Notes under the pieces: model-generated | Database searches by the model: none | What the model saw: the letters and a program-made list of their open reading frames with translations, nothing else | What the model was told of the DNA's origin: nothing | NCBI GenBank assembly: GCA_030066555.1 | Contig: JASJBK010000001.1 | Coordinates: 1-46,291, forward strand | DNA: 46,291 bases | Source of the DNA: Halieaceae bacterium | GTDB taxonomy: Bacteria > Pseudomonadota > Gammaproteobacteria > Pseudomonadales > Halieaceae | Direction: 5' to 3' | In this document: one piece after another, positions 1 to 9,066 of the stretch | Numbering within the stretch: position 1 is the first letter of the stretch | Layout: each line of letters starts with the position of its first letter | Made by a program: the position numbers and the translations under genes

Positions 1-628
1 TGGCGCCGTGGCTGTGGCCTGCCTCGTGCAAGAGGTCAACCCGGGTACCGTCCATTTCCACTTCGCCGATCTCGATGTCGGCAAACTGGAAACGCTCCAG
101 CACCCGCCCATCCTGTGCCACCGTCTGGGTCTTGAGCAGCAGGCCGGTATCGCGGTCGAGGGCCAGCTGGTAGCCGTAGCGGTAAATGTCGCGGGGCAAC
201 ACGTTTATGACGACAGCATCGCGACCGGCGATGCGACTCTTGCCGGCAACCTGCAGCTGGTAATAGCCTCCCACGCCACACTCGCCGGCACCGGAGCGGT
301 AGAGATCACCGATCCGCACCAGGCGGTGGCCAGGATGTATACAATCCAGTGGATGCTCGGTGCGCATAACGCGTGCACCGCTACCGGTCAGGTGGGTGAC
401 CTGCTCCCGCTCAAGGTTGCCGGCCACCGAGTGGGAGATGCGCATGGATTGCACCGCTGCACCGTGCTGGTAGGTGAACACACCCTGGTAGCTGGTTTCC
501 CGCAGGCTGCGTGACATCTTGTCGAGCCAGCGCAGCGCTTCCTGATCCGCGGCCGGGCACTCGGCCTGAGCCGAGACAGACGCCGAGCTCGCTGCGACAA
601 ACAGTGCTGCAAGTACGAGTGTGCGCAA
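1..628 (-). CDS. rseB: MucB/RseB-like sigma-E regulatory periplasmic protein (partial, C-terminus off the left edge; probable TTG start)
   Basis: Manual reverse-strand translation MRTLVLAALFVAASSASVSAQAECPAADQEALRWLDKMSRSLRETSYQGVFTYQHGAAVQSMRISH...; signal peptide plus MucB/RseB N-terminal motif; directly downstream of rseA. Confidence 0.85.
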   Translation of the reverse strand, partial: MRTLVLAALFVAASSASVSAQAECPAADQEALRWLDKMSRSLRETSYQGVFTYQHGAAVQSMRISHSVAGNLEREQVTHLTGSGARVMRTEHPLDCIHPGHRLVRIGDLYRSGAGECGVGGYYQLQVAGKSRIAGRDAVVINVLPRDIYRYGYQLALDRDTGLLLKTQTVAQDGRVLERFQFADIEIGEVEMDGTRVDLLHEAGHSHGA

Positions 629-631
629 GCC

Positions 632-1780
632 CTAGTCCTCGGTGCTGAACGTGGCAACGCGGGCATAGGGCATCATGCCCTGGGGTGCGTTGAGCGAGGC
701 TTCATCGGCGTGTTCCAACATGTAGCGTTCGAGACGCTCACGGGCGATAGCGTCGTAGTCTGTGCTCGGCGCGGCCTCGCGGGCCGGTGCCACAGGGCGT
801 GCTGCCGCGGGCGCCGGAGTGGCATAACCGGCCAGCGTGGCACGTCCGCCCAGTACTGTCACCGCGCCGGAGGGGGCGAGACGGTCGCCTCCAGCAGCGA
901 CCACAGGCGCGCCTGCCACCGGCTGGTCCTGGCTGCCGTAGAACTGGCTACCCACCAGTACCACGGCGAAGACCGACGCGGCCACGGCGAAACTCGCCAC
1001 CGGGCGCAATATTCGCTGCCAGCTGGCCACCGGTTGGATATCGTCGGGAATCTCGGTCGGGGTCGGTTGGGCGCTGTAGGTGGGTTCCTGTTCAATGGCC
1101 GCCATGATGCGACCGGACAGGTCGATATCCGTGACCATTGGCCCGGACTGCAGTCCATGACTGGCGGCATGAAAGCGGCGCCAGGTAGTGCGCAGCGACG
1201 GGTCCTGGACATTGTCCAGCAGCTGGTCCAGCGACGCAGGCTCGGCTTCCCCGTCCATCAGTGCGGACAGGGATTCGCCAAATTCACTGCTGTCGGAGAG
1301 ATCGGCAGGCTGAGCTCCCTGGGTCGACTCCTGCTCAATTGCCGCCATGATGCGGCCCGACAGGTCGGTAGCTGTCACCAGCGGACCCGGCTGCAGGCCG
1401 TGGCTGGCGGTATGGAAGCGTCGCCAGGTGTCGCGCAGCGACTCGTCCTGGATATTGTCCAGCACCTGATCCAGCAGCGCAGCATCGGCTTCCCCGTCCA
1501 TCAGGGCAGACAGTGACTTACCTAACTCGCTGTCGTCGGGGAGAGCGGCAGGCTGGTTACCGTGGGCCGGCTCCTGCTCTATCGCCGCCATGATGCGGCC
1601 CGACAGATCGGTAGCTGTCTCCAATGCACCCGGCTGCAGTCCGTGGCTGGCGGCGTGGAAGCGTCGCCAGGTGTCGCGCAGCGACTCGTCCTGGACATTG
1701 TCCAGCACCTGTTGAAGTGCCTGGTCGTCGGCTTCCCCGTCCATCAGGGCCGACAGCGCTTCGCCAAGCTCTTTGTTCAC
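632..1780 (-). CDS. rseA: RseA/MucA-like anti-sigma-E factor with three tandem RseA N-terminal domains, one TM helix and a periplasmic tail
   Basis: Motif (E/S)LG..LSALMDGEA...DNxQDxSLRxTWRRFHxASHGLQ...DLSGRIMAAIEQE occurs three times; TM segment ASFAVAASVFAVVLVGSQF; lies between rpoE and rseB. Confidence 0.93.
   Translation of the reverse strand: MNKELGEALSALMDGEADDQALQQVLDNVQDESLRDTWRRFHAASHGLQPGALETATDLSGRIMAAIEQEPAHGNQPAALPDDSELGKSLSALMDGEADAALLDQVLDNIQDESLRDTWRRFHTASHGLQPGPLVTATDLSGRIMAAIEQESTQGAQPADLSDSSEFGESLSALMDGEAEPASLDQLLDNVQDPSLRTTWRRFHAASHGLQSGPMVTDIDLSGRIMAAIEQEPTYSAQPTPTEIPDDIQPVASWQRILRPVASFAVAASVFAVVLVGSQFYGSQDQPVAGAPVVAAGGDRLAPSGAVTVLGGRATLAGYATPAPAAARPVAPAREAAPSTDYDAIARERLERYMLEHADEASLNAPQGMMPYARVATFSTED
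1046..1774 (-). repeat. Three in-frame tandem copies of an 81-codon (243-bp) anti-sigma domain unit
   Basis: The 'cttccccgtcca' (MDGEA) landmark recurs at about 1743, 1500 and 1257, a period of exactly 243 bp; protein copies are highly similar. Confidence 0.95.
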
Positions 1781-1902: not shown

Positions 1903-2499
1903 CTATGCATAAGGTGCGTTTTCGCCGTCTACCTGCGCTCGCACTTTCTTGTCTATGGCCTCCCTGGCCCGGAAAATCCTCGACCGTACCGTCCCCACGG
2001 GGCAGTCCATGATCTCCGCGATCTCCTCGTAACTGAGACCATCAAATTCACGTAAAGTTACCGCAGTTCGCAGGTCATCGGGCAAATCGCTTATCGCCTG
2101 CTTGACCACCTCGCCCAGCTCGCGGCTGAACAACATGTTCTCCGGGTTTTCCATGTCCCGGAGCGCGCCACCGTTTTCGAAATGCTCGGCGTCCTCGATC
2201 TCCACATCGCTGCCTGGCGGACGCCGGCCGCGTGCCACCAGGTGATTCTTTGCGGTATTGATCGCTATCCGGTAAAGCCAGGTATAGAAGGCACTGTCAC
2301 CGCGAAAACGCGGCAGGGCCCGGTAGGCCTTGATAAAGGCCTCCTGGGTAACGTCCTGCACCTCATAGCTATCGTGTACATAGCGCGACACCAGCCCCAG
2401 GATCTTCGGCTGGTACTTCAATACCAGAAGATCAAAGGCACGCTTGTCTCCCGCTTGTACGCGTTCTACCAACTGCTGGTCTGTTGCGGCCGAAGCCAA
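1903..2499 (-). CDS. rpoE: RNA polymerase sigma factor RpoE/AlgU (ECF sigma-E)
   Basis: DQQLVERVQAGDKRAFDLLVLKYQPKILGLVSRYV...QDVTQEAFIKAYRALPRFRGDSAFYTWLYRIAINTAKNHL...LSYEEIAEIMDCPVGTVRSRIFRAREAI. Confidence 0.98.
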   Translation of the reverse strand: MASAATDQQLVERVQAGDKRAFDLLVLKYQPKILGLVSRYVHDSYEVQDVTQEAFIKAYRALPRFRGDSAFYTWLYRIAINTAKNHLVARGRRPPGSDVEIEDAEHFENGGALRDMENPENMLFSRELGEVVKQAISDLPDDLRTAVTLREFDGLSYEEIAEIMDCPVGTVRSRIFRAREAIDKKVRAQVDGENAPYA

Positions 2500-2677: not shown

Positions 2678-4288
2678 ATGCCCCAGCGCTACCAGCACGA
2701 CGTCCTCATCATTGGCAGTGGAGCCGCCGGCCTGTCACTGGCCCTGCGCCTGCCAACATCCCTGTCTATCGCTGTGCTCAGCAAGGGCGAACTGACCCAG
2801 GGTTCCACATTCTGGGCCCAGGGCGGCATGGCGGCGGTGCTGGACAAGGACGACACGGTGGAATCCCACGTCGAGGACACCATGATCGCCGGGGTCGGCC
2901 TGTGCCACCGGGACGTGGTGGAGTTCGTAGTCAGCCAGGGAGCCGAGGTGGTCGAGTGGCTGGTAAGCCAGGGGGTGGAGTTCGACCGGCGTGAAACTCC
3001 CAAGCACAGTGAATACCACCTCACCATGGAAGGCGGGCACAGCCACCGGCGCGTGATCCACGCTGCCGACGCCACCGGCCGCGCCATCTCCGAGGTGCTG
3101 GTGGAGAAGACCCTGGCGCGTGACAACGTGGAAATCTTCACCGACGGCGTGGCTGTGGACCTGGTCACCGCTGACGGTCGTTGCCGGGGCGCCTACGTGC
3201 TCGATCGCGACAGCGGTGAGGTCAACCTTTTCCAGGCACGCTTCGTGGTGCTGGCCACTGGCGGTGCCAGCAAGGCCTACCTGTATACCACCAATCCAGA
3301 CGGCGCCAGCGGCGACGGCATCGCCATTGCCTGGCGGGCCGGCTGCCGGGTGGCCAACATGGAATTCAACCAGTTCCACCCCACCTGCCTGTACCACCCC
3401 CGCGCCAAGTCGTTCCTGATCACCGAGGCCCTGCGCGGCGAAGGCGGCCGCCTGCAGCTCCCCGACGGCACCCGTTTCATGGAACGCTTCGACGAACGCG
3501 GCGAGCTGGCGCCCCGGGACGTGGTCGCCCGGGCCATCGACCACGAAATGAAGCGCACCGGTAGCGATTGTGTCTACCTGGACATCAGCCACCAGCCGGC
3601 ACGCTTCCTGCAGTCACACTTCCCTACCGTGCATCGGCGCTGCCTGGATTTCGGCATCGACATCACCCGCGAACCGATCCCGGTGGTGCCCGCCGCTCAC
3701 TACACCTGCGGCGGGGTGCTGGTGGACAAGCGCGGCCAGACCGACCTTCCGGGTCTGTATGCCATTGGTGAAACCGCCTGCACCGGCCTGCACGGGGCCA
3801 ACCGTATGGCCAGCAATTCCCTGTTGGAATGCCTGGTCTATGCGCGCGCCGCTGCCGGAGACATCATTGCGCAGATGGACGATGCGCCGGCACCGGTCGC
3901 GGTCCCGGACTGGGACGAAAGCCAGGTCACCGACTCCGACGAGGATGTGGTGATCTCACACAACTGGGACGAAGTGCGGCGCTTCATGTGGGACTACGTC
4001 GGCATCGTGCGCACCGACAAGCGACTGGCGCGCGCCCGCCACCGCATCGATCTGCTGCAGGAAGAGATCAAGGAGTACTACAGCAATTACAAGGTCAGCA
4101 ACGACCTGCTCGAACTGCGCAACCTGGCCACCGTCGCAGAGCTGATGATCAACTGTGCCATCGCCAGGCGCGAAAGCCGCGGCCTGCACTACACCCTGGA
4201 CTACCCGGAGCTGGACCCCGAGGCCGGTGACACCGTACTAACGCCCAACGGCTCCCTCGCCCAGAGCCAGGCCCAGACCAAGGCGTAA
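2678..4288 (+). CDS. nadB: L-aspartate oxidase
   Basis: [22 protein letters not shown] motif; [60 protein letters not shown]. Confidence 0.98.
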
Positions 4289-6561: not shown

Positions 6562-9066
6562 TCAGCCCCGGTCGCTGCCGATCAGGCTGTTGCGCAGCAG
6601 TTGCGGGCGCTTTTTGCCACCATCATCCTGGCGCCGTTCGTAGCGTGCCGCCGGGGTGTTCACCACCGGCGCCAGCGGCGCCGCTTGCAGTGCCGTTTCC
6701 CGGCGTTCGGCAGGCGCCGGTTGGTAGCGGGTATCGCGCAGCCAGGGCTCACGACCGATGCCGCGCAGGAAGTTTTCGATGTCCTCCAGCGGCCATTCCT
6801 GGCCGTGGGCAGCACCGGCGGCACGGGTAATGGTTTCGTTCATCAGTGTGCCGCCGAGGTCGTTGCAACCGGCCTCGAGGCAGGCCGCCACGCCGGCCTC
6901 GCCCATCTTCACCCAGGAGGCCTGGATATTCTCAATGAACGGGTAAAGCGCCAGCCTCGCCACAGCGTGTACCAGGATCGCTTCCCGGAAGGTCGGCCCC
7001 TTGCGGGCCCTGCCCTTGAGGTACATCGGCGCTTCCATGTGCACGAAGGGCAGCGGCACAAATTCGGTGAAGCCACCGGTGCGCTGTTGCAGGGCGCGCA
7101 GGCGTAGCAGGTGGCGCGCCCAGTGTCGGGGTTGTTCGACGTGGCCGTACATGATGGTCGCTGTGGTGCGGAAACCGACAGCATGTGCCGCTTCCATCAC
7201 CGCCAGCCACTGCTCGGTATTGATCTTGTCCGGGCAGATGACTGAGCGCACCTCGTCGTCCAGGATCTCCGCCGCGGTGCCGGGTAGCGTTCCCAGCCCC
7301 GCCTCCTTCAATGCCCGCAGGTAATCTTCCAGGGACATGTCGAGGGTGTGGGCGCCCTGCCAGACTTCCAGCGGCGAGAACGCGTGCACATGCATTTCCG
7401 GCGTTGCCTGCTTTACCGTGGCGAGAATGTCCAGGTAGGTCTGGCCGGTGTACTCCGGGTGGATACCCCCCTGCATGCAAACCTCGGTGGCACCCCGCGC
7501 CCAGGCCTCGCTACAGCGCCGCGCGATTTCTTCCGCGTCCAGGTCGTAGGGGCGCCCGCGCAGGTTCTCGCTGAGCTTGCCCTTGGAGAAGGCGCAGAAC
7601 TGGCACTTGAAATAGCAGATATTGGTGTAGTTGATGTTGCGGTTTATCGCGAAGGAAACACGATCTCCGTGTAGCTCGCGGCGCAGCTCATCAGCCGCCC
7701 GGCACACCCAGGCGAACTCGGGGCCGCGCGCGCGAAACAGGCGCTCGACATCGGCCTCGTTCAGTTCCGCGCCAGCGCGACAGCGCTCGACAATCTCCCG
7801 AAGGACGGGGTCGACCTCGCTGTCGTCGGGTACCCTGCGAAGCTGCCCCAGCACCTCGGCCGGCGGCTCCATCTCTGCACCCGGACACCAGTCGTCGGTG
7901 CGCGCCAGTCCCTCTGCATCAGAGTGCCGCAGGACGGCATCGCGTACCGCTTCATCCAGCCATACCCGCGGCTCAGTGGCGTAGCGGGGATACAGGGTCA
8001 GCCGCGGCGTAAGCACTTTGCCGGCGGCCGCGGTCTCCGCCGCCAGCTTGTCCAGGTGCGGCCAGGGCGCCTCAGGATTCACGAAGTCCGGGGTCACTGG
8101 TGAGACGCCACCCCAGTCGTTGATGCCCGCGTCTACGATCTGCGGCAACACCCCCGGGCTCAGGTTGGGGGGCGCCTGGATATTCATCTCCGGCCCGAAC
8201 AGGATGCGCGCCACGGCAATGGTCCACAGCAAATCCTCGAGGTCCGGCTCTGGCGCCTGGGCCATCAGCGTGCCGGGCTTGGCGCGAAAATTCTGGATGA
8301 TGACTTCCTGCAGCTGGCCGTGCCGACGATGGCTGGCGCGCAATGCCAGCAGCGACTCAATGCGCTCGCGGCGGGTCTCGCCGATGCCAATGAGAATGCC
8401 CGACGTGAACGGTACATTCAGGCGACCGGCCCGCTCGATTGTTTCCAGCCTGCGGGCGGGCGCCTTGTCCGGGGAGCCGTAGTGCGGCATGCCCTTTTCG
8501 CAAAGTCGTTCCGAGGCGGATTCGAGCATAATGCCCATGGACGCCGACACGGCACGTAGCGCCAGCATTTCCTCGTCATCCATGCAGCCGGCATTGATAT
8601 GCGGCAGCACACCGGTTTCCTCCAGCACCCGGCCGGCAACAACCGTGAGGTATTCCAGCGTCGACGCAAAGCCCATTTCTGCCAGTGCATCGCGGGCCGC
8701 CTTGTAGCGCAGTTCGGGTCGCTCACCCAGTGTGAACAGGGCTTCCTGGCAGCCCAGCTTGCCGGCAGCGCGCACCTGGTCGAGCACCTCGTCTATGGGC
8801 ATATAGGCCTGCGGGATGTGCCTTGGCGTCTGCGCGAAGGTGCAGTAGTGGCAGACGTCGCGACACAGGTGGGTTAGCGGAATGAAAACCTTGCGCGAAT
8901 AGGTGACCAGGCTGCCGTGGCCGCGGTCACGGAGCTCCGCGGCGGCCGCTGCCAGCCTTGCGGTGTCATCAAACTCCGCCAGCTCCAGGGCGGCCTCATC
9001 GTCCGGCGGTAAGGCCAACCAGGACTGCAGCAGCGCATCCGCGGCAAGATCTTCGTAACCAGTCAT
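6562..9066 (-). CDS. fbiC: Bifunctional FO synthase (CofG-CofH fusion, FbiC-type), two radical SAM domains
   Basis: 834 aa with two CX3CX2C motifs: HLCRDVCHYCTFAQ (CofG half) and NICYFKCQFCAFSKG (CofH half). Confidence 0.95.
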   Translation of the reverse strand: MTGYEDLAADALLQSWLALPPDDEAALELAEFDDTARLAAAAAELRDRGHGSLVTYSRKVFIPLTHLCRDVCHYCTFAQTPRHIPQAYMPIDEVLDQVRAAGKLGCQEALFTLGERPELRYKAARDALAEMGFASTLEYLTVVAGRVLEETGVLPHINAGCMDDEEMLALRAVSASMGIMLESASERLCEKGMPHYGSPDKAPARRLETIERAGRLNVPFTSGILIGIGETRRERIESLLALRASHRRHGQLQEVIIQNFRAKPGTLMAQAPEPDLEDLLWTIAVARILFGPEMNIQAPPNLSPGVLPQIVDAGINDWGGVSPVTPDFVNPEAPWPHLDKLAAETAAAGKVLTPRLTLYPRYATEPRVWLDEAVRDAVLRHSDAEGLARTDDWCPGAEMEPPAEVLGQLRRVPDDSEVDPVLREIVERCRAGAELNEADVERLFRARGPEFAWVCRAADELRRELHGDRVSFAINRNINYTNICYFKCQFCAFSKGKLSENLRGRPYDLDAEEIARRCSEAWARGATEVCMQGGIHPEYTGQTYLDILATVKQATPEMHVHAFSPLEVWQGAHTLDMSLEDYLRALKEAGLGTLPGTAAEILDDEVRSVICPDKINTEQWLAVMEAAHAVGFRTTATIMYGHVEQPRHWARHLLRLRALQQRTGGFTEFVPLPFVHMEAPMYLKGRARKGPTFREAILVHAVARLALYPFIENIQASWVKMGEAGVAACLEAGCNDLGGTLMNETITRAAGAAHGQEWPLEDIENFLRGIGREPWLRDTRYQPAPAERRETALQAAPLAPVVNTPAARYERRQDDGGKKRPQLLRNSLIGSDRG

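Follow-up and report, generated by a model that had tools for sequence, protein, structure and literature searches.

An RseA anti-sigma factor with three in-frame copies of its sigma-binding domain is encoded in a 46,291-nucleotide stretch of Halieaceae DNA, hereafter the window. The gene is a true RseA in which the sigma-binding cytoplasmic domain has been duplicated in tandem, and this arrangement is kept within the genus. RseA is a membrane protein that keeps RpoE, the envelope-stress sigma factor, in an inactive state. The two form a textbook model of regulated proteolysis in which 1:1 titration is assumed, and one sigma-binding domain per protein describes the known RseA members but does not define the family.

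Architecture of the tandem RseA and its locus

The rseA gene (632-1780, minus strand), recognised by its open reading frame and Pfam matches, encodes 382 residues with three RseA_N domains and begins at a GTG, ahead of which lies a GGGAGG ribosome site (1787-1792). The locus is otherwise ordinary, with nadB divergent, rpoE upstream of rseA and rseB downstream. The cognate sigma-E is encoded by rpoE (1903-2499, minus strand; TIGR02939 RpoE_Sigma70, 323 bits, above cut-off), with 1OR7_A and 6IN7_B as relatives. Running off the window edge, rseB (1-628, minus strand) matches Pfam MucB_RseB at 157 bits, while nadB (2678-4288, plus strand), identified by family match, is the divergent neighbour also seen when the E. 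coli layout is compared. The 122-bp gap between rpoE and rseA (1781-1902) is too ordinary in length to hint at special control. Within this gap, the short direct repeat GGCAGAGCGCTGGCAT occurs twice and is absent from the sister-species stretches compared.

Three in-frame copies of RseA_N type with a period of 243 bp, or 81 codons, had been described in an earlier note on this DNA, and Tandem Repeats Finder, motif spacing and Pfam all confirm them. A single array was detected in the 46-kb window (1086-1756, period 243, 2.8 copies, 83% matches). LSAL motifs start at residues 9, 90 and 171 and DLSGR motifs at residues 58, 139 and 220, so that both periods are exactly 81. The RseA_N profile, a check proposed in the same note, matches the protein in three stretches at 135 bits, against a cut-off of 24. 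Although the tandem is real, its placement in the note needs correction, as the strand is minus and the gene extends to 632.

Repeat 1 (residues 6-71; 1568-1765, minus strand, as are all features of the gene) gives a genome match of 52.9 bits. Repeat 2 (residues 87-152; 1325-1522) scores 43.3 bits and is predicted to form four helices, and repeat 3 (residues 168-233; 1082-1279), the sigma-binding domain closest to the membrane, scores 51.1 bits and has the best match to 1OR7 chain C. The closest pair is copies 1 and 2, at 83% amino acid identity. Drift from DESLRD to DPSLRT, previously assigned to copies 2 and 3, holds for copy 3, whereas copy 2 keeps DESLRD. In sequence, the domains are separated by linker 1 (residues 72-86; 1523-1567), which is divergent and rich in Ala, Pro, Gln and Asp, and linker 2 (residues 153-167; 1280-1324). 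Two sister species show the same exact period of 81 residues, and the two-copy sister has one of 82.

Hydropathy finds one hydrophobic segment after the repeats, in agreement with the single transmembrane (TM) helix and periplasmic tail noted before. Together with alignment, it places the helix at about residues 257-277 (950-1012; the hydrophobic segment itself spans about 257-278), where it contains a VAA/S motif (the stroke marks the cut site). The tail (635-943) carries a single-copy segment of RseB-binding type, supported by alignment with relatives and by a weak match to the MucA periplasmic chains 6in9/6jau.

Against the NCBIfam RseA equivalog model NF008116, the protein scores 118 bits with a cut-off of 263, again in three stretches, the best of which covers only positions 4-126 of 216. 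This sub-cut-off score may reflect the scope of the model and is not treated as defining for the family. Structure models add little to the case. The full-length model has low confidence (pTM 0.24), with helices showing the four-helix plan three times. Modelled alone, repeat 2 gives four helices (pLDDT 68, pTM 0.40), and a fold search with it returned MucA-cyto as a top match that is not significant (E 0.25).

Distribution and evolution of the repeats

All four genomes examined of the genus carry the tandem, with 3, 3, 2 and 3 copies, and the sister species likewise match Pfam RseA_N in repeated stretches. The earlier note had raised an assembly artefact as an alternative, and the window's genome is indeed fragmented, in 267 contigs. 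However, the window copies differ pairwise at 15-22% of bases, which rules out both a read used more than once and an assembly that collapsed and then expanded again. The arrangement also recurs with diverged sequence in three other genomes, including the two-copy genome, a public, separately deposited MAG (Halieaceae bacterium PL23b_bin.40). Four separate genomes with the tandem thus refute the artefact, and the chance that assembly or binning created it is negligible.

A survey of repeat number in relatives, as the earlier note had suggested, covered about 880 distinct genomes (family, order sample and class sample) and found the tandem nowhere outside the genus, at an E-value limit at which a tandem with one strongly degenerate copy would be missed. 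It was absent from 126 further RseA_N-positive Halieaceae genomes belonging to 27 other genera, whose RseA shares the same operon, domain and TM sequence, and from the 394 genomes of the order sample and the 369 of the class sample. Where surveyed genomes outside the genus had a second RseA_N match, this always lay on another contig or far away. On present data, the RseA_N tandem is a feature of this one genus. A second, distant RseA_N protein occurs in G101, G102, G044 and G105 (same family, genus g27), in frames of 256-345 residues at an unlinked place, with a score near the cut-off.

All 11 copies from the genus fall in one clade apart from single-copy relatives (support 100/99), and the duplications are therefore internal to the genus. 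In the same tree, orthologous copies of the sister species G001 and G003 pair with support of 99/94 for copy 1, 98/91 for copy 3 and a weaker 80/71 for copy 2, and the copies of G002 match copies 1 and 3 by position and tail. The tree does not place the window copies, and the two-copy species may have lost one copy or the ancestor may have carried two. Window copies 1 and 2 are separated by a dS of 0.38, compared with 0.63 or more for orthologues between species, which fits recent duplication or gene conversion.

Between G001 and G003, dN/dS was estimated at 0.16 for copy 1, 0.34 for copy 2 and 0.13 for copy 3, with overlapping intervals; all three lie below 1, so that no copy is drifting freely. 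By these estimates, every copy is under purifying selection. In this one species pair, copy 2 has the highest dN estimate, roughly double the values for copies 1 and 3, again with overlapping intervals, and it might accordingly bind RpoE more weakly. Single-copy domains of other genera, compared at larger distances, have dN/dS of 0.06-0.16 when one near-identical pair (dS 0.04) is left aside, indicating similar constraint on copies 1 and 3 and perhaps somewhat weaker constraint on copy 2. The linkers of the sister species evolve far faster than the domains (dN about 0.5) and keep their length, a combination of fast sequence and fixed length that would be expected of flexible spacers.

Sigma binding and release

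Contact residues were numbered with E. coli RseA as the ruler, using the contact list of PMC7406223. S7, D11, W33, D54, S56 and R58 are retained in 11/11 copies, and position 40 is S in ten of them. In that source, the specificity positions of RseA are S7, D11, Y36 and S56, and D11H alone abolishes activity of the E. coli protein. Y36, which contacts sigma-4, is kept as Tyr in E. coli and nearly all relatives but replaced in every copy of the genus, by F in nine and by L in two, which are the first copies of two species. For the E. coli protein, phosphorylation at Tyr36 has been reported (PMC8103513), and control of that kind therefore cannot act in the genus.

Each of the four genomes encodes one RpoE, the other three being 94-95% identical to that of the window, with contact positions identical across the genus. 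No other ECF sigma in the ten genomes compared exceeds 39% identity to RpoE over the main match, short partial matches aside. At RpoE position 31 (E. coli numbering), which faces RseA residue 51 in the helix 3-4 linker, all four members of the genus have Pro where most relatives have His.

In E. coli, RseA is cut by DegS and RseP, after which SspB and ClpXP degrade the cytoplasmic fragment and free RpoE (PMC8103513). RseP cuts between A108 and C109 (PMC4597795), and the conserved VAA/S motif at A268/S269 of the window RseA aligns with this site. RseP was found in all four genus genomes, although the incomplete genome of the window yielded no more than a fragment of it. Three of the four also have SspB. 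The RseP fragment (G000:C3:13572-13940, L115) is a 135-residue frame matching positions 3-124 of 421.

The retained contact residues in all three domains make binding of more than one sigma-E by one anchor plausible. An anchor for up to three sigma-E molecules, as the earlier note proposed, thus gains credibility from three intact domains, while the occupancy itself is something we infer. Tandem RseA probably holds up to two or three RpoE molecules, which one RseP cut followed by ClpXP would free together or in order. Each RseA_N domain would sequester one RpoE, giving up to three per RseA, whereas release of RseB, cleavage by DegS and cleavage by RseP at VAA/S would each occur once per RseA molecule. 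ClpXP would then degrade the freed fragment from its new C-terminal end, through domain 3, then 2, then 1, such that one proteolytic event could release up to three RpoE close in time. Storage capacity and output per cut would rise, with the signal-sensing part unchanged. The changes at positions 36 and 40 and the possibly weaker binding by copy 2 weigh against this reading. A more speculative extension, which we consider possible but rather doubtful, is that the protein acts as a multivalent membrane-anchored sigma reservoir in which one cut yields a timed burst of two or three sigma-E in a fixed order, membrane-proximal first, and changes in copy number over evolution tune the gain of the envelope stress response. 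A toy stochastic simulation with arbitrary rates left sigma mostly free and has no bearing on these readings.

Other explanations would leave the extra domains with a lesser or different role. The copy number, varying between two and three, could reflect turnover by unequal recombination around one working domain, with the others being tolerated duplicates. This would suit the highest dN estimate falling on copy 2, as well as the recently duplicated or converted look of window copies 1 and 2. Such partial redundancy is nevertheless unlikely, given that dN/dS is estimated below 1 for every copy, the tandem is retained in all four species at a dS of about 0.6 or more and the contact residues are intact throughout. 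It is similarly improbable that the protein binds no more than a single RpoE at once, for instance because the domains crowd each other, with the additional domains raising local concentration and reducing leakage through rebinding. Conserved contact residues are needed by this explanation too, and linkers of about 15 residues are short. However, the RpoE of E. coli binds RseA in preference to core polymerase as it is, and nothing but proteolysis sets it free (PMC8103513), leaving little to gain from rebinding, and no result here favours exclusive binding.

The earlier note also considered that separate domains might bind separate ECF sigma factors. The genomes do encode several distant ECF sigmas, and the L at position 36 in some first copies differs from the F elsewhere. 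Yet the presence of a single RpoE with no close paralogue speaks against the idea, as does the identity of the charge-type position D11, along with S7 and S56, in all copies, making it very unlikely. Sequestration of several RpoE molecules by one tandem RseA is the reading favoured here.

Relation to known systems and neighbouring genes

E. coli RseA (chain C of the sigma-E complex in PDB 1OR7) shares the nadB / rpoE-rseA-rseB layout, the domain, one TM segment, the VAA motif and the periplasmic tail, but has one sigma-binding domain in 216 residues as opposed to three in 382. Pseudomonas aeruginosa MucA (PDB 6IN7, 8Z6G) has the same RseA_N domain, bound by the RpoE relative AlgU, and its periplasmic part (6in9/6jau) bears a weak likeness to the window RseA tail. 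Unlike the tandem protein, MucA has one domain, and its solved complex consists of one MucA domain and one AlgU. More broadly, class I anti-sigma domains (ASDI), such as those of RsiW, RskA and ChrR, are described in PMC7406223 as having the same four-helix plan and dual contacts to sigma-2 and sigma-4. The passages of this ASDI survey that were consulted describe one domain per protein, the survey nowhere uses the words tandem, duplicated or copies, and open-access literature searches for such domains in anti-sigma factors returned nothing relevant. What appears new is a multiplied sigma-binding domain in a well-known anti-sigma factor, found so far in one genus.

With this natural series of one, two and three domains on a shared anchor, it can be tested directly how anti-sigma stoichiometry shapes the gain, speed and noise of a stress response. 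Tandem RseA also offers an off-the-shelf component for synthetic sigma/anti-sigma circuits.

Elsewhere in the window, a fused CofGH, or bifunctional FO synthase (6562-9066, minus strand), scores 1150 bits, above cut-off, and represents F420 precursor synthesis in a gammaproteobacterium.
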